Assembly (NCBI GenBank): GCA_964017185.1
Contig: OZ024869.1
Coordinates: forward strand, 63,750,931-63,814,930
Direction: 5' to 3'
Source: Rugalucina vietnamica
Lineage: Eukaryota; Mollusca; Bivalvia; Lucinida; Lucinidae
Length of the DNA: 64,000 bases
The notes below the pieces were generated by a model. The model worked only from the letters and a program-made list of their open reading frames with translations. It was not told the origin of the DNA and did no database searches. Shown here in pieces: positions 30,462-56,233 of this stretch. Numbering within the stretch: the first letter of the stretch is position 1; every line of letters starts with the position of its first letter. Made by a program: the position numbers and the translations under genes.

Positions 30462-30479
30462 TTTATTCTATCTTTTATT
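30462..30479 (-). promoter_or_regulatory. Two AATAAA polyadenylation signals of the giant gene
   Basis: On the minus strand, AATAAA occurs at 30474-30479 and 30462-30467, only about 27 and 39 bases after the TAA stop at 30506-30508. If used, the 3' untranslated region is very short for so large a transcript. Confidence 0.5.
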
Positions 30480-30505: not shown

Positions 30506-33500
30506 TTATGCATCTTTCTCCGATGGTAAGTCCTCGATGTCTGATAATGATGATTTTCTCAAGTTGGCAGCAATGGCATCGTGTGACTTGGCCCTCCCTG
30601 TCTTGGTAGTGGTTGGATCCTCGGTTGTTTGCGTATCGAATGTTTCCGAATAGTCATCGTCAATTCCCGTTGTTTCTTGTAAAGTTTCGTATTCCGACCG
30701 CGACACTTCGCCCGCTTTTCTCCTGCACAAGTGCTTCTCATAGGTTGTGAACTCGGAATTGGTAAACGTAGACGTTTCGGTCATGCTGGTCATCGTATTG
30801 ACAGTGCATTTCTGACCAACTGTCTCTGTATAAGTCTGGTTAGTCGAAATGGGTTCACTCAGACCTTGATTGAGTGACTCTGTTATAGTCACTTCTGTAG
30901 CATCAGCTCTGGAGAAGGTTGGCATTTCTGACATGTCTTTATCACCTATAACTTCTAACTCTGAGATATCTGTCCAACTGTCATCAGCCTCTCCGTCATC
31001 AGCAGCTATCAAGTGATCTTTACGTGTTTTCTTAGACTCTTTACTTTCTTTCTTATCATTCGGGATCGGATCTAGTTTAGCCACTGGCCTTGGTTTCCGT
31101 TTCTTCTCTGTACTTGCCGTGTTTTGTGTTTTAGCTAGTTGTTCGTTGTCAATGTACAAGATAACCGTAACATCGTCCAGTTCGTAAGTATACATAGATT
31201 CTTTACCTTCAACCTTCGTCGCATCTGTTTCCGTAATAATGATTTCATCGGCTTCGTTCTCTAAAAATGTGGTCTCTTCTCTAACTCGAATAGACTCAGG
31301 GGGTTTCTCTACCATCTCGTTTGTCACAGACACATTGCGGTTTTCACTATGTTGCTGTTCGACAACATTCTTTTCTTGAGCTAGTTTTTCTTGGGCTATC
31401 ACTAACTCATCATTTACAGACTTTTCCATTACTGAAACGTCCTTTTCTGATGGCTCTTGAGCACTTTGCTGTTCTTCATCTATCACTGTTTGCGATATTT
31501 CAGCTTCGTCGTTTGACGACATTTCTTTTGTTGAAATTTCCTTTTCAGATGGTTCTTCAGCTGTCTTTTCTTCTTGAACCAGGTCTACCGGGACAATCAC
31601 TGCTTCGTTTTTAACAGATCCATCAGTAACTGAAATGTCGTTTTCTGATGGCTCATGAGCACTTTGCTGTTCTTCATTTACTGTTGGCGTTATTTCAGCT
31701 TCGTCTTTTGGCGACATTTCTTCTGTTGAAATTTTCTTCTCAGCTTGTTCTTCAGCTGTCTTTTCGTCTTGATCCATGTCTACGTGAGCAATTACTACTT
31801 CGTTTTTCACAGATTTCTCAGTAACTGAAATGTCTTTTTCTGATGGCTCATGAGCACTTTGCTGTTCTTCATCTATGACTGTCGGCGTTATTTCAGCTTC
31901 GTCTTTTGGCGACATTTCTTCTGTTGAAATTTCCTTCTCAGCTGGATCTTCAGCTAGCTTTTCTTCTTGATCCAGGTCTACCGGAGCAATTACTGCTTCG
32001 TCCTTAACAGATTCCTCAGTAACTGCAAGGTCTTTTTCTGGTGGTTCTTGAGCGCTTTGTTGTTCTTCATCTATCACTGTCGGCGTTATTCCAGCTTCGT
32101 CTTTTGGCGACAATTCTTCTGTTGAAACTTCCTTCTTAGCTGCTTCTTCAGCTATCTTTTCTTCTTGATCCAGGTCTACCGGAGCAACTACTGCTTCGTC
32201 TATAACAGATTCCTCAGTAACTGAAATGTCTTTTTCTGATGGCTCTTGAGCACTTTGCTGTTCTTCATCTATCACTGTTGGCGTAATCTCAGCTTCGTCT
32301 TTTGGCGACATTTCTTCTGTTGAAACTTCCTTCTCAGATGGTTCTTCAGCTGTCTTTTCTAGTTGATCCTGGTCTACCGAAGCAATTACTGCTTCGTCTT
32401 TAACAGATTCATCAGTAACAGAAATGTCTTTTTCTGCGTGCTCTTGAGCACTTTGCTGTTCTTCATCTATCACCGTCGGCGTTATTTCAGCTTCGTCTTT
32501 TGGCGACATTTCTTCTGTTGAAATTTCCTTCTCAGCTGGTTCTTCAGCTGTCTTTTCTTCTTGATTCAGGTCTGCCGGAGCAATTATTGCTTCTTTCTTA
32601 TTAGATTCCTCAGTAACTGAAATGTCTTTTTCTGATGGCTCTTGAGCACTTTGTTGTTCTTCATCTATCACTGTCGGCGTTATTTCAGCTTCGTCTTTTG
32701 GCGACATTTCTTCTGTTGAAATTTCATTCTCAGCTGTTTCTTCAGCTATCTTTTCTTCTTGATCCAAGTCTACCGGAACAATTACTGCTTCGTCTTTCAC
32801 AGCTTCCCCAGTAACTAAAATGTCTTTTTCTGATTGCTTTTGAGCACATTCCTGATCTTCATCTATCATTGTCGGCGTTATTTCAGCTTCGTCTTTTGGT
32901 GACATTTCTTCTGTTGAAATTTCCTTCTCAGCTGGTTCTTCAGATATCTTTTCTTCTTGATCGAGGTCAACAGGAACAATTACTGCTTTGTCTTTAACAG
33001 ATTCATCAGTAACTGAAATGTCTTTTTCTGATGGCTCATGAGCACTTTGCTGTTCTTCATCTATCACTGTCGGCGTTATTTCAGCTTCGTCTTTTGGCGA
33101 CATTTCTTCTGTTGATATTTCCTTCTCAGCTGGTTCTTCAGATATCTTTTCTTCTTGATCGAGGTCAACAGGAGCAATTACTGCTTCGTCTTTTAGAGAT
33201 TCATCAGTAACTGGAATTTCTTTTTCTGATGGCTCATGAGCATTTTGCTGTTCTTCTACTATCGCTGTGGGCGTTATTTGAGCTTCGTCGTTTGGCGACA
33301 TTTCTTCTGTTGAAATTTCCTTCTCAGCTGATTCTTCAGCTGTCTTTTCTTCTTGATCCAGGTCTGCCGGAGCAATAACTGCTTCGTCTTTCCCAGATTC
33401 CGCAGTAGCTGAAATGTCTTTTTCTGATGGCTCTTGAGCACTTTGCTGTTCTTCATCTATCACTGTCGGCGTTATTTCAGCTTTGTCTTTTGGCGACATT

Positions 33501-36500
33501 TCTTCTGTTGAAATTTCCTTCTCAGCTGGTTCTTCAACTGTCTTTTCTTCTTGATCCAAGTCAACAGGAGCAATTACTGCTTCGTCTTTAACAGATTCAT
33601 CAGTAGCTGAAATGTCTTTTTCTGATGGCTCTTGAGCACTTTGCTGTTCATCATCTATCACTGTCGGCGTTATTTTAGCTTCGTCTTTTGGCGATATTTC
33701 TTCTGTTGAAATTTCCTTCTCGGCTGGTTCTTCAGATGTCTTTTCTTCTCGATCCAGGTCAACAGCAGCAATAACTGCTTCGTCTTTAATAGATTCATCA
33801 GTAACTGAAATGTCCTTTACTGATGGTTCTTGAGCACTTTGCTGTTCTTCATCTATCACTGTCGGAGTTATTTCAGCTTCGTCTTTTGGTGACATTTCTT
33901 CTGTTGAAATTTCCTTCTCAGATGGTTCTTCAGATATCTTTTCTTCTTGATCAAGGTCAACAGAAGCAATTACTGCTTCGTCTTTAACAGATTCATCAGT
34001 AACTGAAATGTCTTTTTCTGATGGCTCATGAGCACTTTGCTGTTCTTCATCTATCACTGTCGGCGTTATTTCAGCTTCGTCTTTTGGCGACATTTCGTAT
34101 ATTGAAATTTCCTTCTCGTCTGGCTCTTCCGATATCTTTTGTTCTTGATCCAGGTCAACAGGAGCAATTACTGCTTCGTCTTTAACAGATTCATCAGTAA
34201 CTGAAATGTCTTTTTCTGATGGTTCTTGAGCACTTTGCTGTTCTTCATCTATCACTATCGGCGTCGTTTCAGCTTCGTCTTTTGGCGACATTTCTTCTGT
34301 TGAAATTTCCTTCTCAGCTGGTTCTTCCGATATCTTTTCTTCTTGATCGAGATCAACAGGAGCAATTAAGGCTTCGTCTTTAACAGATTGATCAGTAACT
34401 GAAATGTCTTTTTCTGATGGCTCATGAGCACTTTCCTGTTCTTCGTCCATAACTGTCGGCGTTATTTCAGCTTCGTCTTTTGGCGTTATTTCGTCTGTTG
34501 AAATTTCCTTCTCGTCTGATTCTTCCGATATCTTTTCTTCTTGATCTAGGTCAACAGGAGCAATTACTGCTTCGTCTTTAACAGATTCATCAGTAACTGA
34601 AATGTCTTTTTCTGATGGTTCTTGAGCACTTTGCTGTTCTTCATCTATCACTGTCGGCGTTATTTCAGCTTCGTCTTTTGGTGACATTTCTTCTGTTGAA
34701 ATTTCCTTGTCAGCTGGTTCTTCCGATATCTTTTCTTCTTGATCAAGGTCAACAGGAGCAATTACTGCTTCGTCTTTAACAGATTCATCAGTAACTGAAA
34801 TGTCTTTTTCTGATGGCTCATGAGCATTTTGCTGTTCTTCTACTATCGCTGTGGGCGATAAATCAGCTTCGTCGTTTGTCGACATTTCTTCAGTTGAAAT
34901 TTCCTTCTCAGCTGGTTCTTCAGCTGTCTTTTCTTCTTGATCCAGGTCTGCCAGAGCAATAACTGCTTCGTCTTTCCCAGATTCAGCAGTAGCTGAAAAG
35001 TCTTTTTCTGATGGCTCTTGAGCACTTTGCTGTTCTTCATCTATCGCTGTCGGCGTTATTTCAGCTTCGTCTTTTGGCGACATTTCTTCTGTTGAAATTT
35101 GTTTCTCAGCTAGTTCTTCAGCTGTCTTTTCTTCTTGATCCAAGTCAACAGGAGAAATTACTGCTTCGTCTTTAACAGATTCATCAGTAGCTGAAATGTC
35201 TTTTTCTGATGGCTCTTGAGCAATTTGCTGTTCTTCATCTATCACTGTCGGCGTTATTTCAGCTTCGTCTTTTGGCGATATTTCTTCTGTTGAAATTTCT
35301 TTCTCGGCTGGTTCTTCAGATATCTTTGCTTCTTGATCCAGGTCAATAGCAGCAATAACTGCTTCGTCTTTAACAGATTCATCAGTAACTGAAATGTCTT
35401 TTTCTGATGGTTCTTGAGCACTTTGCTGTTCTTCATCTATCACTATCGGCGTTATTTCAGCTTCGTCTTTTGGTGACATTTCTTCTGTTGAAATTTCCTT
35501 CTCAGTTGGTTCTTCCGATATTTTTTCTTTTTGATCCAGATCAACAGCAGCAATTACTGCTTCATCTTTAACAGATTCATCAGTAACTGAAATGTCTTTT
35601 TCTGATGGTTCTTGAGCACTTTGCTTTTCTTCATCTATCACTGTCGGCGTTATATCAGCTTCGTCATTTGGCGACATTTCTTCTGTTGAAATTTCCTTCT
35701 CAGCTGGTTCTTCAGATATCTTTTCTTCTTGATCGAGGTCAACAGGAGCAATTACTGCGTCTTCTGTAGCAGATTCATCAGTAACTGAAATGTCTTTTAC
35801 TGATGGCTCATGAGCACTTTGCTGTTCTTCATCTATCACTGTCGGCGTTATTTCAGCTTTGTCTTTTGGCGACATTTCTTCTGTTGAAATTTCCTTCTCA
35901 GCTGGTTCTTCAGCTGTCTTTTCTTCTTGATCCAGGTCAACAGGAGCAACTACTGCTTCGCCTTTAACAGATTCATCAGTAGCTGAAATGTCTTCTTCTG
36001 ATGGCTCTTGAGCACTTTGCTGTTCTTCATCTATCACTGTCGGCGTTATCTCAGCTTCGTCTTTTGGCGATATTTCTTCTGTTGAAATTTCCTTCTCGGC
36101 TGGTTCTTCAGTTATCTTTTCTTCTTGATCTAGGTCAACAGGAGCAATAACTGCTTCGTTTTTAAGAGATTCATCAGTAACTGAAATGTCCTTTTCTGAT
36201 GGTTCTTGAGCACTTTGCTGTTCTTCATCTATCACTTTCGGCGTTATTTCAGCTTCGCCTTTTGGTGACATTTCTGCTGTTGAAATTTCCTTCTCAGCTG
36301 GTTCTTCAGATATCTTTTCTTCTTGATCGAGGTCAACAGGAGCAATTACTGCTTCGTCTTTAACAGATTCATCAGTAACTGAAATGTCTTTTTCTGATGG
36401 CTCATGAGCACTTTGCTGTTCGTCATCTATCACTGTCGGCGTTATTTCAGCTTCGTCTTTTGGCGACATTTCGTCTGTTGAAATTTCCTTCTCGTCTGGT

Positions 36501-39500
36501 TCTTCCGATATCTTTTCTTCTTGATCCAGATCAAACAGAGCAACTACTGCTTCCTCTTTAACAGTTTCACCAGTAACTGAAATGTCTTTTTCTGATGGTT
36601 CTTGAGCACTTTGCTGTTCTTCATCTATCACTGTCGGCGTTATTTCAGCTTCGTCTTTTGGCGACATTTCTTTAGTTGAAATTTCCTTCTCAGCTGGTTC
36701 TTCAGATATCTTTTCTTCTTGATCGAGGTCAACAGGAGCAACTACTGCTTCGTCTTTAACAGATTCATCAGTAACTACAATGTCTTTTTCTGATGGTTCT
36801 TGAGCACTTTGCTGTTCTTCATCTATCACTATCGGCGTCATTTCCGCTTCGCCTTTTGGTGACATTACTGCTTCGTCTTTAACAGATTCATCAGTAACTG
36901 AAATGTCCTTTTCTGATGGTTCTTGAGCACTTTGCTGTTCTTCATCTATCACTTTCGGCGTTATTTCAGCTTCGCCTTTTGGTGACATTTCTGCTGTTGA
37001 AATTTCCTTCTCAGCTGGTTCTTCAGATATCTTTTCTTCTTGATCGAGGTCAACAGGAGCAATTACTGCTTCGTCTTTAACAGATTCATCAGTAACTGAA
37101 ATGTCTTTTTCTGATGGCTCATGAGTACTTTGCTGTTCTTCATCTATCACTGTCGGCATTATTTCAGCTTCGTCTTTTGGCGACATTTCTTCTGTTGAAA
37201 TTTCCTTCTCAGCTGGTTCTTCAGATATCTTTTCTTCTTGATCGAGGTCAACAGGAGCAATTACTGCTTCGTCTTTAACAGATTCATCAGTAACTGAAAT
37301 GTCTTTTTCTGATGGTTCTTGAGCACTTTGCTGTTCTTCATCTATCACTGTCGGCGTCATTTCCGCTTCGTCTTTTGGTGACATTTCTTCTGTTGAAATT
37401 TCCTTCTCAGCTGGTTCTTCAGATATCTTTTCTTCTTGATCGAGGTCAACAGGAGCAATTACTGCTTCGTCTTTAACAGATTGATCAGTAACTGGAATGT
37501 CTTTATCTGATGGCTCATGAGCACTTTGCTGTTCTTCATCTATCACTGTCGGCGTTATTTCAGCTTCGTCTTTTGGCGTTATTTCGTCTGTTGAAATTTC
37601 GTTCTCGTCTGTTTCTTCCGATATCTTTTCTTCTTGATCCAGGTCAACAGGAGCAATCACTGCTTCGTCTTTAACAGATTCATCAGTAACTGAAATGTCT
37701 TTTTCTGATGGTTCTTGAGTACTTTGCTGTTCTTCATCTATCACTGTTGGCGTTATTTCAGCTTCGTCCTTTGGCGACATTTCTTCTGTTGAAATTTCCT
37801 TCTCAGCTGGTTCTTCAGATATCTTTTCTTCTTGATCAAGGTCAACAGGAGCAACTACTGCTTCGTCTTTAACAGATTCATCAGTAATTACAATGTCTTT
37901 TTCTGATGGTTCTTGAGCACTTTGCTGTTCTTCATCTATCACTGTCGGCGTTATGTCAGCTTCGTCTTTTGGCGACATTTCTTCTGTTGAAATTTCCTTC
38001 TCAGCTGGTTCTTCAGATATCTTTTCTTCTTGATCGAGGTCAACAGGAGCAATTACTGCTTCGTCTTTAACAGATTCATCAGTAACTGAAATGTCTTTTT
38101 CTGATGGTTCTTGAGTACTTTGTTGTTCTTCATCTATCACTGTCGGCGTTATTTCAGCTTCGTCTTTTGGCGACATTTCGTCTGTTGAAATTTCCTTCTC
38201 GTCTGGTCTTTCCGATATCTTTTCTTCTTGATCCAGGTCAACAGGAGCAATTGCTGCTTCGTCTTTAACAGATTCATCAGTAACTGAAATGTCTTTTTCT
38301 GATGGTTCTTGAGCACTTTGCTGTTCTTCATCTATCACTGTCGGCGTCATTTCCGCTTCGTCTTTTGGCGACATTTCTTCTGTTGAAATTTCCTTCTCAG
38401 CTGGTTCTTCCGATATCTTTTCTTCTTGATCCAGGTCAACAGGAGCAATAACTGCTTTGTCTTTAACAGATTCATCAGTAACTGAAATGTCTTTTTCTGA
38501 AGGTTCTTGAGCACTTTGCTGTTCTTCATCTATCACTGTCGGCGTTATTTCAGCTTCGTCTTTTGGCGACATTTCTTCTGTTGAAATTTCCTTCTCAGCT
38601 GGTTCTTCAGCTATCTTTTCTTCTTGATCGAGGTAAACAGGAGCAATTACTGCTTCGCCTTTAACAGATTCATCGGTAACTGAAATGTCTTTTTCTGATG
38701 GCTCATGAGCACTTTGCTGTTCTTCTCCTATCACTGTCGGCGTTATTTCAGCTTCGTCTTTTGGCGACATTTTGTCTGTTGAAATTTCCTTCTCAGCTGG
38801 TTCTTCAGATATCTTTTCTTCTTGATCGAGGTCAACAGGAGCAATTACTGCTTCGTCTTTAACAGATTGATCAGTAACTGAAATGTCTTTTTCTGATGGT
38901 TCTTGAGTACTTTGTTGTTCTTCATCTATCACTGTCGGCGTTATTTCAGCTTCGTCTTTTGGCGACATTTCTTCTGTTGAAATTTCCTTCTCAGCTGGTT
39001 CTTCAGATATCTTTTCTTCTTGATCGAGGTCAACAGGAGCAATTACTGCTTCGTCTTTAACAGATTCATCAGTAACTGAAATGTCTTTTTCTGATGGTTC
39101 TTGAGTACTTTGTTGTTCTTCATCTATCACTGTCGGCGTTATTTCAGCTTCGTCTTTTGGCGACATTTCGTCTGTTGAAATTTCCTTCTCGTCTGGTCTT
39201 TCCGATATCTTTTCTTCTTGATCCAGGTCAACAGGAGCAATTACTGCTTCGTCTTTAACAGATTTATCAGTAACTGAAATGTCTTTTTCTGATGGTTCTT
39301 GAGCACTTTGCTGGTCTTCATCTATCACTGTCGGCGTCATTTCCGCTTCGTCTTTTGGCGACATTTCTTCTGTTGAAATTTCCTTCTTAGCTGGTTCTTT
39401 CGATATCTTTTCTTCTTGATCCAGGTCAACAGGAGCAATAACTGCTTCGTCTTTAACAGATTCATCAGTAACTGAAATGTCTTTTTCTGATGGCTCATGA

Positions 39501-42500
39501 GCACTTTGCTGTTCATCTCCTATCACTGTCGGCGTTATTTCAGCTTCGTCTTTTGGCGACATTTCGTCTGTTGAAATTTCCTTCTCGTCTGGTCTTTCCG
39601 ATATCTTTTCTTCTTGATCCAGGTCAACAGGAGCAATTACTGCTTCGTCTTTAACAGATTCATCAGTAACTGAAATGTCTTTTTCTGATGGCTCATGAGC
39701 ACTTTGCTGTTCTTCATCTATCACTGTCGGCGTTATTTCAGCTTCGCCTTTTGGTGACATTTCTTCTGTTGAAATTTCCTTCTCAGCTGGTTCTTCAGCT
39801 ATCTTTTCTTCTTGATCGAGGTAAACAGGAGCAATTACTGCTTCGCATTTAACATATTCCTCGGTAACTGAAATGTCTTTTTCTGATGGCTCATGAGCAC
39901 TTTGCTGTTCTTCATCTATCACTGTCGGCGTTATTTCAGCTTCGTCTTTTGGCGTTATTTCGTCTGTTGAAATTTCGTTCTCGTCTGTTTCTTCCGATAT
40001 CTTTTCTTCTTGATCCAGGTCAACAGGAGCAATCACTGCTTCGTCTTTAACAGATTCATCAGTAACTGAAATGTCTTTTTCTGATGGTTCTTGAGTACTT
40101 TGCTGTTCTTCATCTATCACTGTCGGCGTTATTTCAGCTTCGTCTTTTGGCGACATTTCTTCTGTTGAAATTTCCTTCTCAGCTGGTTCTTCAGATATCT
40201 TTTCTTCTTGATCAAGGTCAACAGGAGCAACTACTGCTTCGTCTTTAACAGATTCATCAGTGACTACAATGTCTTTTTCTGATGGTTCTTGAGCACTTTG
40301 CTGTTCTTCATCTATCACTGTCGGCGTTATTTCAGCTTCGTCTTTTGGCGACATTTCTTCTGTTGAAATTTCCTTCTCAGCTGGTTCTTCAGATATCTTT
40401 TCTTCTTGATCGAGGACAACAGGAGCAATTACTGCTTCGTCTTTAACAGATTCATCAGTAACTGAAATGTCTTTTTCTGATGGTTCTTGAGTACTTTGTT
40501 GTTCTTCATCTATCACTGTCGGCGTTATTTCAGCTTCGTCTTTTGGCGACATTTCGTCTGTTGAAATTTCCTTCTCGTCTGGTCTTTCCGATATCTTTTC
40601 TTCTTGATCCAGGTCAACAGGAGCAATTACTGCTTCGTCTTTAACAGATTCATCAGTAACTGAAATGTCTTTTTCTGATGGCTCATGAGCACTTTGCTGT
40701 TCTTCATCTATCACTGTCGGCGTCATTTCCGCTTCGTATTTTGGCGACATTTCTTCTGTTGAAATTTCCTTCTCAGCTGGTTCTTCAGACATCTTTTCTT
40801 CTTGATCCAGGTCAACGGGAGCAATCACTGCTTCGTCTTTAACAGATTCATCAGTAACTGAAATGTCTTTTTCTGATGGTTCTTGAGTACTTTGCTGTTC
40901 TTCATCTATCACTGTCGGCGTTATTTCAGCTTCGTCTTTTGGCGACATTTCTTCTGTTGAAATTTCCTTCTCAGCTGGTTCTTCAGATATCTTTTCTTCT
41001 TGATCAAGGTCAACAGGAGCAATAACTGCTTCGTCTTTAACAGATTCATCAGTAACTACAATGTCTTTTTCTGATGGTTCTTGAGCACTTTGCTGTTCTT
41101 CATCTATCACTGTCGGCGATATTTCAGCTTCGTCTTTTGGCGACATTTCTTCTGTTGAAATTTCCTTCTCAGCTGGTTCTTCAGATATCTTTTCTTCTTG
41201 ATCGAGGTCAACAGGAGCAATTACTGCTTCGTCTTTAACAGATTCATCAGTAACTGAAATGTCTTTTTCTGATGGTTCTTGAGTACTTTGTTGTTCTTCA
41301 TCTATCACTGTCGGCGTTATTTCAGCTTCGTCTTTTGGCGACATTTCGTCTGTTGAAATTTCCTTCTTGTCTGGTCTTTCCGATATCTTTTCTTCTTGAT
41401 CCAGGTCAACAGGAGCAATTACTGCTTCGTCTTTAACAGATTCATCAGTAACTGAAATGTCTTTTTCTGATGGTTCTTGAGCACTTTGCTGTTCTTCATC
41501 TATCACTGTCGGCGTCATTTCCGCTTCGTATTTTGGCGACATTTCTTCTGTTGAAATTTCCTTCTCAGCTGGTTCTTCCGATATCTTTTCTTCTTGATCC
41601 AGGTCAACAGGAGCAATAACTGCTTCGTCTTTAACAGATTGATCAGTAACTGAAATGTCTTTTTCTGATGGTTCTTGAGTACTTTGTTGTTCTTCATCTA
41701 TCACTGTCGGCGTTATTTCAGCTTCGTCTTTTGGCGACATTTCTTCTGTTGAAATTTCCTTCTCAGCTGGTTCTTCAGATATCTTTTCTTCTTGATCGAG
41801 GTCAACAGGAGCAATTACTGCTTCGTCTTTAACAGATTCATCAGTAACTGAAATGTATTTTTCTGATGGTTCTTGAGTACTTTGTTGTTCTTCATCTATC
41901 ACTGTCGGCGTTATTTCAGCTTCGTCTTTTGGCGACATTTCGTCTGTTGAAATTTCCTTCTCGTCTGGTCTTTCCGATATCTTTTCTTCTTGATCCAGGT
42001 CAACAGGAGCAATTACTGCTTCGTCTTTAACAGATTCATCAGTAACTGAAATGTCTTTTTCTGATGGTTCTTGAGCACTTTGCTGGTCTTCATCTATCAC
42101 TGTCGGCGTCATTTCCGCTTCGTCTTTTGGCGACATTTCTTCTGTTGAAATTTCCTTCTTAGCTGGTTCTTTCGATATCTTTTCTTCTTGATCCAGGTCA
42201 ACAGGAGCAATAACTGCTTCGTCTTTAACAGATTCATCAGTAACTGAAATGTCTTTTTCTGATGGCTCATGAGCACTTTGCTGTTCTTCTCCTATCACTG
42301 TCGGCGTTATTTCAGCTTCGTCTTTTGGCGACATTTCTTCTGTTGAAATTTCCTTCTCAGCTGGTTCTTCAGCTATCTTTTCTTCTTGATCGAGGTCAAC
42401 AGGAGCAATTACTGCTTCGTCTTTAACAGATTCATCAGTAACTGAAATGTCTTTTTCTGATGGCTCATGAGCACTTTGCTGTTCTTCTCCTATCACTGTC

Positions 42501-45500
42501 GGCGTTATTTCAGCTTCGTCTTTTGGCGACATTTCGTCTGTTGAAATTTCCTTCTCGTCTGGTCTTTCCGATATCTTTTCTTCTTGATCCAGGTCAACAG
42601 GAGCAATTACTGCTTCGTCTTTAACAGATTCATCAGTAACTGAAATGTCTTTTTCTGATGGCTCATGAGCACTTTGCTGTTCTTCATCTACCACTGTCGG
42701 CGTTATTTCAGCTTCGTCTTTTGGCGTTATTTCGTCTGTTGAAATTTCCTTCTCGTCTAATTCTTCCGATATCTTTTCTTCTTGATCCAGGTCAACAGGA
42801 GCAATCAATGCTTCGTCTTTAACAGATTCATCAGTAACTGAAATGTCTTTTTCTGATGGTTCTTGAGTACTTTGCTGTTCTTCATCTATCACTGTCGGCG
42901 TTATTTCCGCTTCGTCTTTTGGCGACATTTCTTCTGTTGAAATTTCCTTCTCACCTGGTTCTTCAGATATCTTTTCTTCTTGATCAAGGTCAACAGGAAC
43001 AACTACTGCTTCGTCTTTAACAGATTCATCAGTAACTGAAATGTCTTTTTCTGATGGTTCTTGAGCACTTTGCTGTTCTTCATCTATCACTGTCGGCGTT
43101 ATTTCAGCTTCGTCTTTTGGCGACATTTCTTCTGTAGAAATTTCCTTCTCAGCTGGTTCTTCAGACATCTTTTCTTCTTGATCGAGGTCAACAGGAGCAA
43201 TTACTGCTTCGTCTTTAACAGATTCAACAGTAACTGAAATGTCTTTTTCTGATTGTTCTTGAGCACTTTGCTGTTCTTCATCTATCACTGTCGGCGTTAT
43301 TTCAGCTTCACCTTTTGGTGACATTTCTTCTGTTGAAATTTCCTTCTCAGCTGGTTCTTCAGATATCTTTTCTTCTTGACCGAGGTCAACAGGAGCAATT
43401 ACTGCTTCGTCTGTAACAGATTCATCAGTAACTGAAATGTCTTTTTCTGATGGCTCATGAGCATTTTGCTGTTCTTCATCTATCACTGCTGGCGATTTTA
43501 TATTAGCTTCGTCTTTTGGCGACATTTCGTCTGTTGAAATTTCCTTCTCGTATGGTTCTTCCGATATCTTTTCTTCTTGATCCAGGTCAACAGGAGCAAC
43601 TACTGCTTCGTCTTTAACAGATTGATCAGTACCTAAAATGTCTTTTTCTGATGGTTCTTGAGCACTTTGCTGTTCTTCATCTATCACTGTCGGCGTTATT
43701 TCAGCTTCGTCTTTTGGCGACATTTCTTTTGTTGAAATTTCCTTCTCAGCTGGTTCTTCAGATATCTTTTCTTCTTGATCGAGGTCAACAGGAGCAATTA
43801 CTGCTTCGTCTTTAACAGATTCATCAGTAACTGAAATGTCTTTTTCTGATGGCTCATGAGCAGTTTGCTGTTCTTCATCTATCACTGTCGGCGTTATTTC
43901 AGCTTCGTCTTTTGGCGACATTTCGTCTGTTGAAATTTCCTTCTCGTCTGGTCTTTCCGATATCTTTTCTTCTTGATCCAGGTCAACAGGAGCAATTACT
44001 GCTTTGTCTTTAAAAGATTCATCGGTAACTGAAATGTCTTTTTCTGATGGTTCTTGAGCACTTTGCTGTTCTTCATCTATCACTGTCGGCGTCATTTCCG
44101 CTTCGTCTTTTGGCGACATTTCTTCTGTTGAAATTTCCTTCTCAGCTGGTTCTTCCGATATCTTTTCTTCTTGATCCAGGTCAACAGGAGCAATAACTGC
44201 TTCGTCTTTAACAGATTCATCAGTAACTGAAATGTCTTTTTCTGATGGTTCTTGAGCACTTTGCTGTTCTTCATCTATAACTGTCGGCGTTATTTCAGCT
44301 TCGTCTTTTGGCGACATTTCTTCTGTTGAAATTTCCTTCTCAGCTGGTTCTTCAGATATCTTTTCTTCTTGACCGCGGTCAACAGGAGCAATTACTGCTT
44401 CGTCTGTAACAGATTCATCAGTAACTGAAATGTCTTTTTCTGATAGCTCATGAGCACTTTGCTGTTCTTCATCTATCACTGTCGGCGTTATTTCAGCTTC
44501 GTCTTTTGGCGACATTTCGTCTGTTGAAATTTCCTTCTCGTCTGGTTCTTCCGATATCTTTTCTTCTTGATCCATGTCAAAAGGAGCAACTACTGCTTCG
44601 TCTTTAACAGATTCATCAATAACTGAAATGTCTTTTTCTGATGGTTCTTGAGCACTTTGCTGTTCTTCATCTATAACTGTCGGCGTTATTTCAGCTTCGT
44701 CTTTTGGCGACATTTCTTCTGTTGAAATTTCCTTCTCAGCTTGTTCTTCAGACACCTTTTCTTCTTGATCGAGGTCAACATGAGCAATTACTGCTTCGTC
44801 TGTAACAGATTCATCAGTAACTGAAATGTCTTTTTCTGATGGCTCATGAGCATTTTGCTGTTCTTCATCTATCACTGCTGGCGATTTTATATTAGCTTCG
44901 TCTTTTGGCGACATTTCGTCTGTTGAAATTTCCTTCTCGTATGGTTCTTCCGATATCTTTTCTTCTTGATCCAGGTCAACAGGAGCAACTACTGCTTCGT
45001 CTTTAACAGATTGATCAGTACCTAAAATGTCTTTTTCTGATGGTTCTTGAGCACTTTGCTGTTCTTCATCTATCACTGTCGGCGTTATTTCAGCTTCGTC
45101 TTTTGGCGACATTTCTTTTGTTGAAATTTCCTTCTCAGCTGGTTCTTCAGATATCTTTTCTTCTTGATCGAGGTCAACAGGAGCAATTACTGCTTCGTCT
45201 TTAACAGATTCATCAGTAACTGAAATGTCTTTTTCTGATGGCTCATGAGCAGTTTGCTGTTCTTCATCTATCACTGTCGGCGTTATTTCAGCTTCGTCTT
45301 TTGGCGACATTTCGTCTGTTGAAATTTCCTTCTCGTCTGGTCTTTCCGATATCTTTTCTTCTTGATCCAGGTCAACAGGAGCAATTACTGCTTTGTCTTT
45401 AAAAGATTCATCGGTAACTGAAATGTCTTTTTCTGATGGTTCTTGAGCACTTTGCTGTTCTTCATCTATCACTGTCGGCGTCATTTCCGCTTCGTCTTTT

Positions 45501-48500
45501 GGCGACATTTCTTCTGTTGAAATTTCCTTCTCAGCTGGTTCTTCCGATATCTTTTCTTCTTGATCCAGGTCAACAGGAGCAATAACTGCTTCGTCTTTAA
45601 CAGATTCATCAGTAACTGAAATGTCTTTTTCTGATGGTTCTTGAGCACTTTGCTGTTCTTCATCTATAACTGTCGGCGTTATTTCAGCTTCGTCTTTTGG
45701 CGACATTTCTTCTGTTGAAATTTCCTTCTCAGCTGGTTCTTCAGATATCTTTTCTTCTTGACCGCGGTCAACAGGAGCAATTACTGCTTCGTCTGTAACA
45801 GATTCATCAGTAACTGAAATGTCTTTTTCTGATAGCTCATGAGCACTTTGCTGTTCTTCATCTATCACTGTCGGCGTTATTTCAGCTTCGTCTTTTGGCG
45901 ACATTTCGTCTGTTGAAATTTCCTTCTCGTCTGGTTCTTCCGATATCTTTTCTTCTTGATCCATGTCAAAAGGAGCAACTACTGCTTCGTCTTTAACAGA
46001 TTCATCAATAACTGAAATGTCTTTTTCTGATGGTTCTTGAGCACTTTGCTGTTCTTCATCTATAACTGTCGGCGTTATTTCAGCTTCGTCTTTTGGCGAC
46101 ATTTCTTCTGTTGAAATTTCCTTCTCAGCTGGTTCTTCAGACACCTTTTCTTCTTGATCGAGGTCAACATGAGCAATTACTGCTTCGTCTGTAACAGATT
46201 CATCAGTAACTGAAATGTCTTTTTCTGATGGCTCATGAGCAGTTTGCTGTTCTTCATCTATCACTGTCGGCGTTATTTCAGCTTCGTCTTTTGGCGACAT
46301 TTCGTCTGTTGAAATTTCCTTCTCGTCTGGTCTTTCCGACATCTTTTCTTCTTGATCCAGGTCAACAGGAGCAACTACTGCTTCGTCTTTAACAGATTCA
46401 TCAGTAACAGAAATGTCTTTTTCTGATGGTTCTTGAGCACTTTGCTGTTCTTCATCTATCACTGTCGGCGTTATTTCATCTTCGTCTTTTGGTGACATTT
46501 CTTCTGTTGGAATTTCCTTCTCAGCTGGTTCTTCAGACATCTTTTCTTCTTGATCGAGGTCAACAGGAGCAATTACTGCTTCGTCTTTAACAGACTCATC
46601 AGTAACTGAAATGTCTTTTTCTGATGGCTCATGAGCATTTTGCTGTTCTTCATCTATCACTGTCGGCGTTATTTCAGTTTCGTCTTTTGGCGACATTTCG
46701 TCTGTTGAAATTTCCTTCTCATCTGGTCTTTCCCATATCTTTTCTTCTTGATGCAGGTCAACAGGAGCAATTACTGCTTCGTCTTTAACAGATTCATCAG
46801 TAACTGAAATGTCTTTTTCTGACGGTTCTTGAGCACTTTGCCGTTCTTCATCTATCACTGTCGGCGTCATTTCCGCTTCGTCTTTTGGCGACATTTCTTC
46901 TGTTGAAATTTCCTTCTCAGCTGGTTCTTCCGATATCTTTTCTTCTTGATCCAGGTGAACAGGGGCAACAACTGCTTCGTCTATAACAGATTCATCAGTA
47001 ACTGAAATGTCTTTTTCTGATGGTTCTTGAGCACTTTGCTGTTCTTCATCTATCACTGTCGGCGTTATTTCAGCTTCGCCTTTTGGTGACATTTCGTCTG
47101 TTGAAATTTCCTTCTCAGCTGGTTCTTCAGCTATCCTTTCTTCTTGATCGAGGTCAACAGGAGCAATTACTGCTTCGTCTTTAACAGATTCATCGGTTAC
47201 TGAAATATCTTTTTCTGATGGCTCATGAGCACTTTCCTGTTCTTCTCCTATCACTGTCGGCGTTATTTCAGCTTCGTCTTTAACAGATTCATCAGTAACT
47301 GAAATGTCTTTTTCTGATGGTTCTTGAGCACTTTGCTGTTCTTCATCTATCACTGTCGGCGTTATTTCAGCTTCGTCTTTTGGCGACATTTCTTCAGTTG
47401 AAATTTCCTTCTCAGCTGGTTCTTCAGATATCTTTTCTTCTTGATCGAGGTCAACAGGAGCAATTACTGCTTCGTCTTTAACAGATTCATCAGTAACTGA
47501 AATGTCCTTTTCTGATGGCTCATGAGTATTTTGCGGTTTTTCTCCTATCACTGTCGGCGTTATATAAGCTTCGTCTTTTGGCGACATTTCTTCTGTTGAA
47601 ATTTCCTTCTCAGCTGGTACTTCAGCTGTCTTTTCTTCTCGATCCAGGTCTACCGGAGCAATTACTGCTTCGTCGTTAACAAATTCATCAGTAACTGAAA
47701 TGTCTTTTTCTGATGGCTCACGAGCACTTTGCTGTTCTTCATCTATCATTGTTGGCGTTTTTTCAGCTTCGTCTTTTGGCGACATTTCTTCTGCTGAAAT
47801 TTCCTTCTCAGCTGTTTCTTCAGCTGTCTTTTCTTCTTGATGCAAGTCTACCGGAGCAATAACTGCTTCGTCTTTCGCAGATTCCTCAGTAACTGAAATG
47901 TTTTTTTCTGATGGCTCACGAGTACTTTGCTGTTCTTCATCTATCGCTGTCGGCGTTATTTCAGCTTCGTCTTTTGGCGACATTTCTTCTGTTGAAATTT
48001 CCTTCTCAGCTGGTTCTTCAGCTATCTTTTCTTCTTGATCCAAGTCTACCGGAACAATTACTGCTTCGTCTTTCACAGATTCCCCAGTAACTAAAATGTC
48101 TTTTTCTGATGGATCTTGAGCACATTGCTGATCTTCATCTATCATTGTCGGCGTTATTCCAGCTTCATCTTTTTGCGACATTTCGTCTGTTGAAAATTTT
48201 TTCTCAGCTGGTTCTTCAGTTATCTTTTCTTCTTGATCCATTTCTACTTGAGCAATTACTGCTTCGTCTTTAACAGATTCATCAGTAACTGAAATGTCTT
48301 TTTCTGACGGTTCTTGAGCACTTTGCCGTTCTTCATCTATCACTGTCGGCGTCATTTCCGCTTCGTCTTTTGGCGACATTTCTTCTGTTGAAATTTCCTT
48401 CTCAGCTGGTTCTTCCGATATCTTTTCTTCTTGATCCAGGTCAACAGGGGCAACAACTGCTTCGTCTATAACAGATTCCTCAGTAACTGAAATGTCTTTT

Positions 48501-51500
48501 TCTGATGGCTCATGAGCACTTTGCTGTTCTTCATCTATCACTGTCGGCGTTATTTCAACTTCGTCTTTTGGCGACATTTCTTCTGTTGAAATTTCCTTCT
48601 CAGCTGGTTCTTCAGCTGTCTTTTCTTCTTGATCCAGGTCCACCGCAGCAATTACTGCTTTGTCTTTAACAGATTCATCAGTAAATGAAATGTCCTTTTC
48701 TGATGGCTCTTTAGCACTCTGCTGTTCTTCATCTATCACTGTCGGCGTTATTTCAGCTTCGTCTTTTGGTGACATTTCTTCTGTTGACATTTCCTTCTCA
48801 GCTGGTTCTTCGGCTGTCTTTTCTTCTTGATCCAGGTCTACTGGAGCAATTATCGCTTCGTCTTTAACAGATTCATCAGTAAATGAAATGTCTTTTTCTG
48901 ATGGCTCATAAGATCTTTGTTGTTCTTCATCTATAACTGTAAGCATTATTTCAGCTTCGTCTTTTGGCGACAATTCTTCGGTTGAAACTTCCTTCTCAGC
49001 TTGTTCTTCGGCTATCTTTTCTTCTTGATCCACGTCTACCGGAGAAATAAATGCTTCGTCTTTCACAGATTCCTCAGTTAATGAAATGTCCTTTTCTGAT
49101 GGCTTATGGGCACTTTGCTGTTCTTCATCTATCACTGTCGGCGTTATTTTAGCTTCGTCTTTTGGCGACATTTCTTCTGTTGAAATTTCCTTCTCAGATG
49201 GTTCTTTAGCTGTCTTTTCTTCTTGATTCAGGTGCACCGCAGCAATTACTGCTTCGTCTTTAACATATTCATCAGTAACTGAAATGTCTTTTTCTGATGG
49301 CTCTTGAGCACTTTGCTGTTCTTCATCTATCACTGTCGGCGTTATTTCAGCTTCGTCTTTTGGCGACACTTCTTCTGTTGAAATTACCTTCTCAGCTGGT
49401 TCTTCAGCTATCTTTTCTTCTTGATCCAGGCCAAAAGGAGTAATTACTGCGTCGTCTTTAACAGATTCCTCAGTAACTGAAATGTCTTTTTCTGATGGCT
49501 CTTGAGCACTTTGCTGTTCTTCATCTATCACTGTCGGTGTTATTTCAGCTTCGTCTTTTGGCGACATTTCTTCTGTTGAAATTTCCTTCTCGTCTGGTTC
49601 TTCAGCTGTCTTTTCTTCTTGATCTCGGTCTACCGGAGCAATAACTGCTTCGTCCTTAACAGATTCCGCAGTAGCTGAAATGTCTTTTTCTGATGGCTCT
49701 TGAGCACTTTGCTGTTCTTCAGCTATCACTGTCGGCGTTATTTCAGCTTCGTCTTTTGGCGACATTTCTTCTGTTGAAATTTTCTTCTCAGCTGGTTCTT
49801 CGGCTGTCTCTTCTTTTTGATCCAGGTCTACCGGAGCAATTACTGCTTCGTCTTTCACAGATTCCTCAGTAACTGAAATATCTTTATCTGGTGGCCCTTG
49901 AGCACTTTGTTGTTCTTCATCGGCCACTGTCGGTGTTTTTTCAGCCTCGTCTTTTGGCGACATTTCTTCTGTTGAAATTTCCTTCTCAGCTGGTTCTTCA
50001 GCTGTCTTCGCTTCTTGATCAAGGTCTACCGGTGCAATAACTGCTTCGTCTTTAACAGATTCCTCAGAAAGTGAAATATCAATGTCTTTTTCTGATGGCT
50101 CTTGGGTACTTTGTTTTTCTTCATCTATCACTGTCGGCGTTATTTCAGCTTCGTCTTTCGGCGACATTTCTTTTGTTGAAATCCCCTTCTCAGACGGTTT
50201 TTCGGCTGTATTTTCTTCTTGAATCTGGTCTATCGGAGCAATTGCTGCTTCGTCTTTCACAGTTTCCTCAGTCACTGAATCATTGTCAACATGCTGCTCT
50301 TCTTCTATTTTGTGAAGGATTTTTGCTACCTCTTCCTCTGCGATTTTTGCCAGGATTGCTATGTCCTTTTCAAATATTTCAGGAGACTGATATTTTTTAC
50401 TTTCATTTTCAATTTCTTCATTTCTCTCTTCCCTCGCTGAATAGTTATCTATATGGGATTCTTTCTGAAACATGTCATTTTCTGCATTAGTGTTTGCAGT
50501 TTTGGTTAAACTTTCTTCTGTATTCCATTTTGATGATCTGATGTATTCTGCAACTTGTCTCTCTGTATCATCCAGTGCGTCTGCGATAAAGTTACTGTCA
50601 CTGTCTCTGTCTGTGTCATCTTCAGGGTTTTCATTTTGTTTATCGGAAATGTTTTGTTTAATTGTAAGTTCAATAATTGATTCATCATCTGATTCCGAGC
50701 TACTGGTACTTGAAGTACTTGAGCTTTCCTTGCTTACAGTTGTTTTATCAACATGTTCTGGATAGAGAAGGTATTTGTCCATATCTTCTTGCTTTTTATC
50801 CGAAATTCCATAGTCTACGGAAATTTCGACATTTTCAATTTTGTTAAGGACTGGTTCTTCAGAATTATACCAATTTGGTTCATTTGTGCCCAACTCAATT
50901 ACGCCTTGGTATGACTCTTTTGTTGAAATGCGTTCAAGACTGATGTCTTGAGAATTTGAAATGCTGGTTTGGGTCTCAATATTGTGTGATGTTTGAGTTT
51001 GAACATCTGTTATTGTTTGTGTCTGTGCGAAGTTCATCGTTTGTGTTTCTGATGAACATATAGTTTGTGTCTGTGATGCTGACATAGTCTGAGTCATCGA
51101 ATCCTCCAAGTTGCGTATATCATCAAGGTCTTTACTTAATTCTTTTAGGATTTTCAGATCCTCCGAGTCATGTGATGAAAACATTTCTATATCCTTATAG
51201 TGATCTGTTTTAATGCCCATGGGTTTAATTTCTATTTCCTTCTCCAGGGAACCTTTGTCAGTCTCTTCTTGTTCACCCTTTTGAGTCACAGTGAACTTAT
51301 TCTCATCTTCCTTTATCACTACTTGAACATCGTTTTCATAGAATTTTATTCCGTCCCCTTCTGATTTGTCTTCATTATCCGACGTGGAGCTTTGTCGTGT
51401 ATCTTCGACATCTGATTTTCGCTGAAGATCATCTTTGCTGATTACTGTTTCCTCATTCAAATCGTTGTCTTTCTCGTGACTTTGTTTGTCTATGTGGTGT

Positions 51501-54500
51501 TTTGTCAGGACGTCAAGGGTAGACTGCTCAAGAGCACCTTCGTGAGAAATTATCAGTGTGTTTATAGATGAGTTTGATATTACAAACTTACTGATACCAG
51601 AAGTTTGGGGAGTTGGGCTTGTTGTTGAAGCCACTGAACTATCTATCTTAGATTTTGAATCCATCTCCACAGCTTCAACTCGTGCTTCCTGTTCCTGGGT
51701 CACTGTAGACAACCCTGATGAATCATATTCTTCCTGCTGGACCTCTCTTTCTTTTTTGTATTTGCTATGATCTTCATCTAAGGATGTGTATGTGTTATTG
51801 GAATATTCATATTTCTTCTCGATGACTGTTTCATGTTCGCTGATGTGTTCTTCCAATTGGCCTGTTTTTGGTTCTTCTGTATTTGGGACATTTATTGGAC
51901 TACTCATGTCTATCTTATCCGTTGTACTTGTGTAAGCTTTGAAATCATCACGATAACAGGCAGAAGATTTTATATTTTCCTGTCTCGACTTTTCAGATGC
52001 TTCCTCATGATGGTTCTCCAAAGCTTCATAACTGCTGTCTCTTAATAAGTCTTCAGACTTCTCTTTTTCAATTTGAACATCTCTATTTTCTAGCGTTTCA
52101 GGTGACTCGTTCAAAAGTTTAAGTTCGGATCTGCGCACATGATGCCCTTTCTTCTCTTTTGTACCAACAACATATATGTTCGTATCTTTAAGAGACTCTC
52201 GATTACGCCTTTCCTTTCTGTCCTTTTCTGTAGTAGCATCTTTATCTCTTTTCTTATGTTTTCTTTCTTTTCTTGGTGTTGTTGTTTCTGTATCTTTGGA
52301 ACGATCTTTTCTTCTCACCTTTACAACTGCAACTTTTTCTAATTGCTGTACATCTGCCAGACAATCAGTTGCTTCTTTCGATGCTTGTTTGTCGGTTGAA
52401 TCACGTTGTATTTCCTTTGGTTTTTCGTCATTGAATGAAGACTGTTGTGCATATTCACTTTCGATCGATTTGTCTGTAATATCTATCTGCTTGTCTTCTA
52501 TTTCTTCTTTATATCCTTCTACCTGAAATAGTTCTTTATCGTCTAGATTCTCTCGTTCCTCGACTTTAGCTTCTTGGTCATCTCTGGACACGACAACAAT
52601 CTGTTTAATCTTGTACAATTGTTGATCTCGCTCAATTGTCTCTTCTTTTCTGATCTCAATATTGCCTTCTTCTCTGTTCAGTCTTAGTTCAGATTTATCA
52701 TCAGGATCATTGCTGATTTCATGTCTCTCAACAACTCCTGTACCATGTTTTAGAGCTGGAACTTCTCGCCTCTTCTCTCGCCAGTCAATCTTATCCTCGT
52801 CGAAATCTATTTTAAGCGATGACCTAATTGACGAAACCGGAAGTGGTCGAGCTCCCTTTGTAACGAGGCTTGGCGATGGTGGTCTTTCCATTTCGGCTGG
52901 TCGGAATGGATCGTGAGTTTCCGGGAAAATCGATTGTTCTATTCTACGGTATGGGGTAGTGTAGGTTGGTGTGAGTGTTTCAGTTGCCGAAAGAGATACG
53001 TCATTGTCCTGAGAGGTTGTCCCTGGAGCAATTCTGGAATATATAGGGCACATAATTAATATAATAATAAACAATACGGACAGTCAAAATGTGTGAGAGT
53101 GCAGATCTGCCATGTTGATACAAAAATCTGGTGTATACCCTGTACAAGTAAACTACTGTTTGACAGAAGTATGAGTCTAAATAGTTGATTCAAAAGCAAA
53201 TAAATTTTGTTGGTGTTGTTGTTTTTTCTCAGAAATTATTACTTTTTCTGTCGGACATGGGTGCATATTTAATTTCATTATTAAACAATTTATGATAGTA
53301 TATACTATAAAATGCCGAAAAGCATTTTCGTTTCGTCAGATTTTACGATTTTAAAGAATAAAAAACGGATGTTTGCCTATGCGAAAACAAAGGCGCACAT
53401 TTGCACAGCTGATCAGCGCCTTTGTTTTCGCTACTCGGATGGAACAACCCCTCTGCTTCTTAAATCCGAAATTTCAAGCTTCTTTTCTGAAGCTGCACAG
53501 GCCGATTTTTATCAGACCGAAGACCGATTTTCTCGCGTTGTGGCTCAAATGTAATAAGAGGAATCGTAAAGGCAAAGGTAATGAACATGCACATAACTTG
53601 TCCCTGTTATATTGAACAATCAAGTTACATTCGGTGCATATAAAACTTTAATGGTTACGTATGAGCCGCTGTGTGACAAGACCATCGACTAAGGTTTTAC
53701 AACATATTCATCGAAAGATTCAAATTCCAGACTCTACCGTGCGCATAACTGAAGAAATAGACCATTAGAGCTACCCATGCTTACAAACAGACTGACGGAT
53801 TTGCATCTCTGGTTTTGTCATGCAGCGAGCCATTTCCAGGAAATCATGCAATTTATATGATAAATAAACAGATAAAACAAGAAATCATTTATGTGCATAG
53901 TATGCTGTTACAAATGGGTACGTGTCGTGCATCCAAGCATTTGCTCATGCAATATCGTGGACGATTGTAAATAATAAATGAGGTGCCACATAAGAAAACC
54001 AACAATAAGCAAAGACGAAAACAAAGTCACAGATCAGCTGTGCAGTAACTGCACAGCTGATCAGCGACTGATAATACAATGCCCCTTCTTCTTAAATCCG
54101 AAATTTCAAGTGTCTAGCCTGATCCTGTGGCTGCACATGCCGGTTTGTATCAGACCTGGTTGGAAACCACATTGTTTGTTGTATCATGATGCGGCTTATA
54201 TGATTTATTTAAGTATACTAATTTTAACTGGAAGAAATCAAGGATATAATATGGAATGACATGAAGTTACAATGAAATATGAACGAAATAATATGGTTAC
54301 ATGCTACGTATGCTGCTGCAAACATACCCCTGAGACGTATCAATGTGACTACTGAACATTGTATTGCGTGACCGTGGGGTTTGGGTCAGCTCATGGGCCT
54401 GTCTTGGGCATGAAGCCCTGTGAGAAGCCCTGGATTGTGTCTAGAAAAATATGATCGATGAACATGTTAAAACAGATGCTCAATGTTGGTGAAAAATGCC

Positions 54501-56186
54501 AAATGAGATTTCCAGTATTCTAATTATGAAAAGGCGTAGGATTGGACATTGTCGAACGAAATCAACCCAACTTCCCACTCATTATCAATTTGAAGAGGAT
54601 TAAGTAGCCGAAACCGCGGTATGGCCCATCCCCTTTCTCATTAATATGTTCGCTGCTCTTAAAGTATCTCAGTTTTATTTTTATCCACTGTCATTTTAGG
54701 GGCAGGTAGTCTAAGGAGTGGATTTTAATTTTTATTCACTTTTTGATGAATTTTCTCTAAGCAAACAGAATAGCCCTAGATGGGACGCCGCGTTTTGCGG
54801 CGTCATATTTTGGGCTATTCTGTTTACCTATGTCCCATAAAAAGGACGTTAGGCTTATATGAGTTATTAAGCTTCAAACGTTTAGAAGAACGGTGTGATC
54901 CATTACAAATTGTCTGTAAAATAGTATGAAGACAACACATCATCATGTATACTTCATTTGGCACTTACATGTATCATAACCTGATATTAACGTATGTCAC
55001 ACATAATCTGATCGCCGCGTATTTGCAACATTTTCCTACAACTTAAGAAAACAACATGATCGGACTGAGAGGGTGTGTGGTTTGATCTTTGTCCACCAAA
55101 AGGACCTAGGCCTAACGAGATCAGAGTTAGTCAAAAGCAGTGTTACAATGGTAGAAGACACGCAACTCTTCACACAATTATGAGACAAGTGAAATGGTTA
55201 TCTACCTTTGAAGACTGTGTCTCCCTCCTTGGTGATCTCTCTGCTGTATAGACATCTGTAATAAGCCAGGCGCCAGTTGTTCAAAACTTCGTTAGCTTAA
55301 CACCATCCTTAAGACCTCACCTCGTTAAGTAAATGCTGACTACATAATCAAACACACTGTTATTTTTGTTGATAAAATGTGAGACTCCTTTGCACTGCAA
55401 AGGATTCTCACATTTTATCAACCAAAAATAAGAGTGTATTTGTATTATTTATGTTTTGAAATTTTAACGAATGGTTAACTAACGATGTCGTTAATTTTGA
55501 ACGATAGGGCCCCGAAGTTTAGTATTCAGCATCTCACAAGCAAAGCAGTGACACTTTTCAGGGGTGCGACATAAAATGTAAGAAATTATCGCGGCCCGTT
55601 TGGAACTCTCAATGGCTTTAATTGTGTCACATTTATTCAATGCATGCAACATATTCGATTTTTATTTCGGTTCAATATAACGTTACATAATATATGCATC
55701 AGTTGTATTTAATGCATCAAACATGTTCGAATGGCTCTTGAATATGCATTAAGCCTGGTCAGTTTTAGATATGATCACCACCTTTTGTTAATATGATTAT
55801 GATCGATTTCAGCTTCTGAAACTCCGGGCGTTCAGTTATCAATAGAAAGAAAAACGAAAGTCTACTTGCTGTCACTTACCGTCATAATAATCTACGAATT
55901 CCTTCGATTTGAGAATAGAGCCGACATGTCGACTGTAACCTTGGTACTTTCGATCATGTTCGTCATGACGAGACGGACGATAACGGTGGATGATTTGTAG
56001 CTCGTCAACTGGGATACTAGCCTGCAAAACATCATTATAGGCCCCTATGCATTCCAATACTGTTAAAGAATTTTAGCTCCACTCCAAAGGTAACAAGAGA
56101 TTGAGTCAGACAATGAATTCTGACTAATGTCAAGGATTGTATTATGTATGCAGAATTGGACCTTTAAACATTTTATGACACTACGC

Positions 56187-56233
<47 letters not shown>

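Follow-up and report, generated by a model that had tools for sequence, protein, structure and literature searches.

The window analysed here, a stretch of 64,000 nucleotides from the lucinid bivalve Rugalucina vietnamica (contig OZ024869.1, hereafter C1; C1:63750931-63814930), carries on its minus strand a gene whose last exon is read in one open frame over 22.5 kb. Our gene model joins seven phase-matched exons between 59599 and 30506 and predicts a protein of 7,762 amino acids, with a mass of 865.7 kDa and a pI of 4.05. That this minus-strand segment is a real protein-coding gene seems to us almost certain, because the frame is open, the length changes inside it are whole codons, changes to stop codons are absent, the splice chain is consistent in phase and polyadenylation signals are present. 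All coordinates are those of the window, and the genome searched comprises 1.09 Gb in 47 contigs. The features of the locus are the following:

59524..59599, minus strand: 76 nt, probably the first coding exon, which carries the ATG of MNVERRENRFDPRGRF...; acceptor ttcctcttttcacag, donor ATG/gtaata, phase fitting exon 2
58987..59246, minus strand: exon 2, 260 nt, Arg/Lys/Ser-rich; top-scoring minus-strand candidate of 111 kb, with consensus splice sites
57550..57701, minus strand: exon 3, 152 nt, from splice sites and phase
56341..56456, minus strand: exon 4, 116 nt, from splice sites and phase
55880..56021, minus strand: exon 5, 142 nt, from splice sites and phase
55206..55255, minus strand: exon 6, 50 nt, read as ..VYTAERSPRRETQSSK, from splice sites and phase
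30506..53008, minus strand: giant terminal exon, 22,503 nt, 7,500 codons and TAA
50294..53008, minus strand: unique acidic region preceding the array, 905 aa
50966..51109, minus strand: six TQT motifs at an exact 8-residue spacing, a possible LC8/DYNLL-binding row without linker (exon residues 638-680, 0-based)
31352..50293, minus strand: tandem array of 191 units of 33 aa (95 A, 96 B), 6,314 residues, 18.94 kb (exon residues 905-7219, 0-based)
30506..31351, minus strand: unique C-terminal tail, 281 aa, and stop codon; its single genome match is itself
31112..31222, minus strand: predicted strand-strand-helix element (..YTYELDDVTVILYIDNEQLAK..) in the tail, with 10-residue blocks at pLDDT (predicted local distance difference test) values of 62, 73 and 71
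30965..30985, minus strand: DDSWTDI in the tail, one of 3 regular-expression matches in the whole protein
30462..30479, minus strand: two AATAAA polyadenylation signals, 26 and 38 nt past the stop

The stop-to-stop frame of the giant exon extends over 30509-53083 (7,525 codons), and the exon itself runs from the acceptor ctctcag/GAC at 53008 to the TAA at 30506. The acceptor fits because the exon at 55255-55206, in the phase set by 56021-55880, finishes on a whole codon and 53008 is the start of a codon. An acceptor AG at 53033, combined with exon 6 read from its own ATG, was rejected as out of phase with exon 5, although its site score is the higher of the two (5.15 versus 4.62). An initial annotation of this DNA had described one uninterrupted 22.5-kb exon of 7,500 residues, with an acceptor in the phase needed by the exon at 55206-55255, and both statements hold, the first over the whole of 53008-30506 and the second by the codon phase carried through exon 5. 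Its figures for the residues outside the array (1,180 on the N-terminal side and 290 on the C-terminal side) were close, and are corrected here to 1,167 (905 + 262) and 281.

The upstream exons were found by scanning the minus strand of 53,034-164,000 for splice-bounded open frames, with codon training on the unique parts of the giant exon and without the use of phase. Five of the nine top minus-strand candidates in these 111 kb (five of ten in another run) fall within one 4.1-kb stretch, 59,246-55,206, situated 2.2-6.2 kb upstream of the giant exon, and the five junctions from 59246 through 53008 are all concordant in phase, for which the chance is (1/3)^5. Several points weigh against the model at its 5' side: the scores of single upstream exons (11.9-19.7) overlap those of the controls (ten Markov sequences, with top scores of 12.1-17.6), the plus strand of the same DNA reaches exon scores of 31.0, 21.7 and 16.1, and exon 1 and the start codon are weakly supported. 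Since single scores overlap the controls, it is the clustering of the candidates and their phases which carry the gene model. The exon at 59599-59524 fits in phase and supplies a methionine, but it has a low score (6.8) and was selected with phase in view; its frame is open back to the acceptor, so that further coding exons could exist upstream.

In the array, whose units were called with a threshold of 14 identities, A and B units alternate (consensus A, SEKDISVTDESVKDEAVIAPVDLDQEEKISEEP; consensus B, AEKEISTEEMSPKDEAEITPTVIDEEQQSAQEP) and some units are A/B hybrids. The spacing is exactly 33 residues in 185 of 190 cases, the departures being 35, 34, 34, 41 and 32. Aligned at the DNA level, each of these five irregular spacings corresponds to a net change of whole codons, the normally spaced units having been compared ungapped; in two of the five alignments the aligner split the gap, as 22 + 2 nt in one case and as 4, 1 and 3 nt, cancelling at the degenerate first unit, in the other. 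The estimate of about 18.9 kb of repeat in the initial annotation was thus accurate, and its statement that all length changes are multiples of three is borne out by the five irregular spacings. An identical copy of a 1,349-nt stretch lies 1,389 nt away (seven 66-aa units and 3 nt), which shows a recent block duplication. The similarity of the A units to their consensus is 0.879 and 0.896 at the two ends and rises to 0.973 in the middle; the B units fall to 0.902 at the right end, but at the left end, with 0.947, they present no extra degeneracy, which is a point against unequal exchange. The exact block repeat and the contrast between edges and middle of the A units are the usual mark of in-register unequal exchange, by which the array probably evolves and through which it would gain and lose units.

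Read in its own frame, the array has no stop in 6,281 codons, versus 200-655 stops in each of the other five frames. About 51-77 stops would be expected under neutral change, a figure inflated by taking the changes as independent. Counting distinct changes once, 0 of 32 possible single-step changes to a stop were present, as against 174 of 438 nonsynonymous and 63 of 124 synonymous ones (P about 1e-7); the copies share descent, and this way of counting lessens the non-independence but leaves some of it. The differences from consensus at codon positions 1/2/3 number 168/126/231 in 94 A units and 97/99/278 in 94 B units, and an omega-like ratio amounts to 0.53 for the A units and 0.58 for the B units. 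These counts concern 188 of the 191 units, the three units with fewer than 20 identities (those at exon residues 2689 and 3152, each with a 3-nt insertion, and the one at 7186) having been dropped. They suggest a moderate constraint on the amino acids inside the array and a strong constraint on the open frame. The remark in the initial annotation that the exon has no stop therefore stands, for the array as for the unique flanks, which are open likewise, and its proposal of selection on the protein is supported by the deficit of stop changes, the whole-codon spacing changes and a satellite control, with the reservation that the amino-acid constraint is only moderate.

This control bears on whether there is a gene at all. 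Repeat units divisible by three can remain open, and a satellite located 59-72 kb past the 3' end of the exon (window coordinates -41060 to -28400; about 12.5 kb, period 87 bp, 143 copies) presents open stretches on both strands, of up to 1,591 codons. A tandem satellite open by chance in one frame is nevertheless a scarcely credible description of the array: the control has stops in all six frames (80, 88, 129, 200, 263 and 321), the non-repeat flanks of 905 and 281 codons share the open frame of the array, the spacing changes are whole codons, no change to a stop was found among the 32 possible and third codon positions vary most. Another scenario supposes a non-functional or barely expressed gene, open as a result of recent homogenisation of the array. 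Mid-array units, about 93-97% like the consensus, agree with a recent exchange which could remove stops; the A units at both ends, however, have diverged to about 88-90% and yet hold none, and the unique flanks are also open, which argues against homogenisation alone, and we consider this scenario very improbable.

The real gene that we favour would encode a protein of contrasted composition. The net charge is +25 over exons 1-6 (262 aa), -82 in the unique region (905 aa), -1,580 in the array (6,314 aa) and -27 in the tail (281 aa); there are 8 Cys in the 7,762 residues, 44 Arg within the first 262, and in the array 86 S-P-K and 628 CK2-like S/T-x-x-D/E phosphorylation-type motifs. The array repeats are predicted to be disordered: AlphaFold, run on a triple of 66-residue units with 27 further triples aligned to it, returned a mean pLDDT of 49 and no secondary structure, although an alignment of such self-similar rows cannot prove disorder, which weighs against reading too much into this model. 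The last 307 residues alone gave a poor model (pLDDT of 43.5), in which, apart from the strand-strand-helix element, the only block above 60 (71) falls in a helix where the array ends. The DDSWTDI segment of the tail presumably resembles an LC3-interacting (LIR) motif, as a candidate only.

The gene appears to be single copy in its own genome. The tail found one match, itself, and the remaining matches of the N-terminal region of the giant exon lie only in its own array; exons 1-6 found themselves with E values of 5e-5 or lower, except for the 50-nt exon (E 3), and all other matches of that search have E of at least 0.38 and mostly contain stops. These searches score the best candidates only. 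No significant match to the protein was found in Pfam or the PDB, and NCBIfam gave no match, which is little informative here as its models are bacterial and archaeal; the initial annotation, which did not recognise the family, is upheld on this point. A similarity to DUF5563 (PF17718; 14.9 bits, E 0.019, residues 4-31, over the exon 1/2 junction) lies below the gathering score of 25 bits and is a lead only, and a profile search of the genome with DUF5563 gave no match, its controls being unmatched too. Among the titles and abstract starts listed in one open-access library on giant or largest exons, AHNAK (in molluscs too), Futsch, LC8 with TQT and bivalve giant repeat proteins, none describes this gene, and no paper was listed on DUF5563; this does not imply that the gene is unpublished.

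The most peculiar part of the unique region is its row of six TQT motifs. The residue before TQT is Q or E, except for M in the first; the spacers vary and the TQT codons differ synonymously, so that the TQT residues look kept while the rest drifted. A seventh TQT is present in the tail. When the 905-aa region was shuffled 20,000 times, more than 4 TQT were never obtained, an origin via octad duplication being outside this null. The genome contains 6 dynein light chain matches, of which 5 are full length. As a separate observation, three of the full-length matches stand in tandem over 961 bp (C8:22030599-22031559).

Tables of LC8 sites list them as peptides of 8 residues (PMC12057147), so that a row with a spacing of 8 has no linker. 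The LC8 consensus is given as [D/S]-4 K-3 X [T/V/I]-1 Q [T/V]+1 [D/E]+2, for a motif termed loosely characterized (PMC3078936), and the six sites present the TQT core in 6/6 and D/S at -4 in 3/6. Multivalent LC8 clients offer a parallel: Nup159 is described with a stack of five LC8 dimers and human ASCIZ with 11 sites, both on disordered chains (PMC5963919), and here, likewise, a predicted disordered chain carries a TQT row, with six motifs and the seventh in the tail. The exact 8-residue spacing without linker sets it apart, for the linkers of fly ASCIZ are reported as 3, 6, 9, 30 and 41 residues, the 3-residue one yielding off-register complexes when LC8 is high, and one linker of 1 residue is reported for human ASCIZ (PMC10046861). 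Three points count against LC8 binding in such a row: K at -3 occurs in 0/6 and D/E at +2 in 0/6 of the sites; the TQT core is what remains to suggest binding, and the sites are putative; and, by analogy with the off-register complexes at a 3-residue linker, zero linkers may prevent the simultaneous filling of the six sites.

Large repeat exons have been described elsewhere. AHNAK2 is reported to have at least seven exons, six small and one of about 17,559 bp (PMC10682155), and a 2026 preprint describes the human MUC12 repeat exon, with proteins of up to 23,080 aa (PMC13345508); exons of this size were called rare in any animal by the initial annotation, which is fair, yet these precedents exist. 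The present gene shares with AHNAK and AHNAK2 the combination of several small exons with one giant repeat exon (PMC10682155) and a large internal array, in proteins of the 600-700 kDa class, but differs by its unit of 33/66 aa (versus about 128 or 165 aa), its TQT row and the lack of a sequence match in Pfam. Pfam scans of the exons and of the minus strand of 57,000-104,000, which short exons could escape, revealed no PDZ domain, and for this reason we do not file the gene under the AHNAK family. The giant ankyrins of Drosophila, Ank2-L and Ank2-XL, also have tails encoded by giant exons, for which the idea of a spacer is shared, and Ank2-XL, of 1,200 kDa, is described with a large repeat region needed for microtubule interaction (PMC6703079); ankyrin repeats, ZU5, UPA and death domains were, in contrast, not found at this locus. 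An ankyrin giant exon was rejected on the genome-wide matches, 2 for UPA and 8 for ZU5, with none on C1, the UPA matches and the ZU5 match closest to UPA being on C3. As for Futsch/MAP1B domains, the C-terminal 330 residues had no Pfam match and the N-terminal 363 only the weak DUF5563 one, Pfam's MAP1 models being unchecked. The mucin exons (MUC12, MUC4, MUC16) are likewise large coding exons made of tandem repeats, but mucins are secreted or tethered glycoproteins, unlike the Glu/Asp/Lys-rich and apparently intracellular array found here; in about half of the mucins, the edges of the array are reported to have degenerated more than its middle (PMC13345508). More generally, long internal exons tend to hold tandem repeats encoding disordered regions (PMC12457776). 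On its sequence, the gene is best called a giant-exon disordered repeat scaffold, of a kind already known and filed in no named family, with an unusually tight possible LC8 row.

Two readings would bring the gene closer to these known systems. The exon could belong to a large gene already known, be it a giant ankyrin, AHNAK, Futsch/MAP1B or a titin-like gene, with the diagnostic domains encoded upstream of our model; the architecture is of the same kind, and the reading frame of exon 1 continues without a stop up to its acceptor. We hold this improbable, as UPA and ZU5 have no match on C1, the modelled exons have one weak Pfam match and otherwise none, and a Pfam scan of the three minus-strand frames of 57,000-104,000 found only POU and homeodomain, with the provisos that short exons may escape and that 53,034-57,000 was covered via the modelled exons only. 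These POU/homeodomain matches serve as positive control for the scan of frames with X at stops. Molluscs produce acidic repetitive matrix proteins, which would suit a secreted acidic repeat protein, of the shell-matrix or mucin type, and mucins provide known giant repeat exons (PMC13345508). Such a protein is rather unlikely here: the modelled N-terminus MNVERRENRFDPRGRF is charged and, by eye, unlike a signal peptide (more upstream coding exons being possible), the 44 Arg of the first 262 residues and the 8 Cys of the whole protein do not favour secretion, and the TQT row is typical of intracellular LC8 clients.

The explanation which we prefer, and to which we give about an even chance, is that of a single-copy gene whose last exon encodes nearly all of a protein of about 866 kDa, which would act inside the cell as a scaffold or tether. 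Its mechanism, as composition and motifs suggest it, would combine a basic head, an LC8 zipper and a very long acidic spacer, a combination that falls slightly short of an even chance. The basic head (+25 in 262 residues) would bind an acidic or polymeric partner (microtubule, actin or membrane), although a basic head and an acidic array do not prove cytoskeletal attachment, which weighs against this step. The six contiguous TQT motifs would then bind a row of LC8 dimers, holding two chains side by side and in register, while the 6,314-residue acidic array would behave as an extended disordered polyelectrolyte spacer or entropic spring, with a contour of about 2.3 µm by arithmetic at 0.36 nm per residue, tunable by phosphorylation at the S-P-K (86) and CK2-like (628) sites. 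The C-terminal tail would provide the second attachment point. In its most specific version, the gene would belong to an undescribed animal family of LC8-zippered giant tethers, in which six linker-free sites lock two chains rigid and in register, two acidic spacers of about 6,300 residues extend from them and the rapid addition and removal of units of 33 or 66 residues, in frame, determines the length. We propose this version as tentative and rather doubtful, the more so as none of the six sites has K at -3 or D/E at +2.

The splicing of such an exon may be helped by the composition of its repeats. Splice-like sites are few in the array (0.63 acceptor and 0.53 donor per kb, versus 8.38 and 7.38 in the 60-100 kb region), and the depletion is a property of the repeat unit, since it is weaker in the unique parts of the exon (3.68 and 2.37 acceptors, 2.95 and 7.11 donors per kb). 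GAAGAA, a purine-rich splicing enhancer motif, occurs 16.73 times per kb in the array versus 0.47 at 60-100 kb, the sense strand being purine-rich. This richness in GAAGAA and poverty in splice sites may help to retain the exon whole.

If the transcript is real, the exon is among the longer animal coding exons known, and it provides a natural case for understanding how 22.5 kb get spliced and stay in frame despite recombining repeats. The zero-linker TQT row would test the tightest packing of LC8 dimers, and a repeat spacer this long would allow length and function to be compared across individuals and species.

Other features were recorded around the gene and elsewhere in the genome. The next Pfam-recognised gene upstream on the minus strand is that of the POU/homeodomain exons, at about 97.6-100.7 kb (right of the window), which we take from its sequence to be POU6-like. 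The best exon-like candidate of the plus strand, also right of the window, lies at 71563-72210 (score of 31.0), inside a 396-codon open frame at 71301-72488. Downstream of the gene, three overlapping open pieces at 22511-24736 on the minus strand correspond to a retroelement remnant; the two pieces that were scanned both matched RVT_1, at 77.9 bits (above the curated cut-off) and 25.1 bits (below it). Tandem arrays with a period of 147 bp occupy 3647-4258, with a 170-bp row, and 8621-9421, and their units look related by eye. Finally, COX1 on the mitochondrial contig C47 agrees with the invertebrate mitochondrial code, 15 of its codons being AGA/AGG translated as Ser, as suits a mollusc without proving one. 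At 30,680 bp, this contig is large for an animal.

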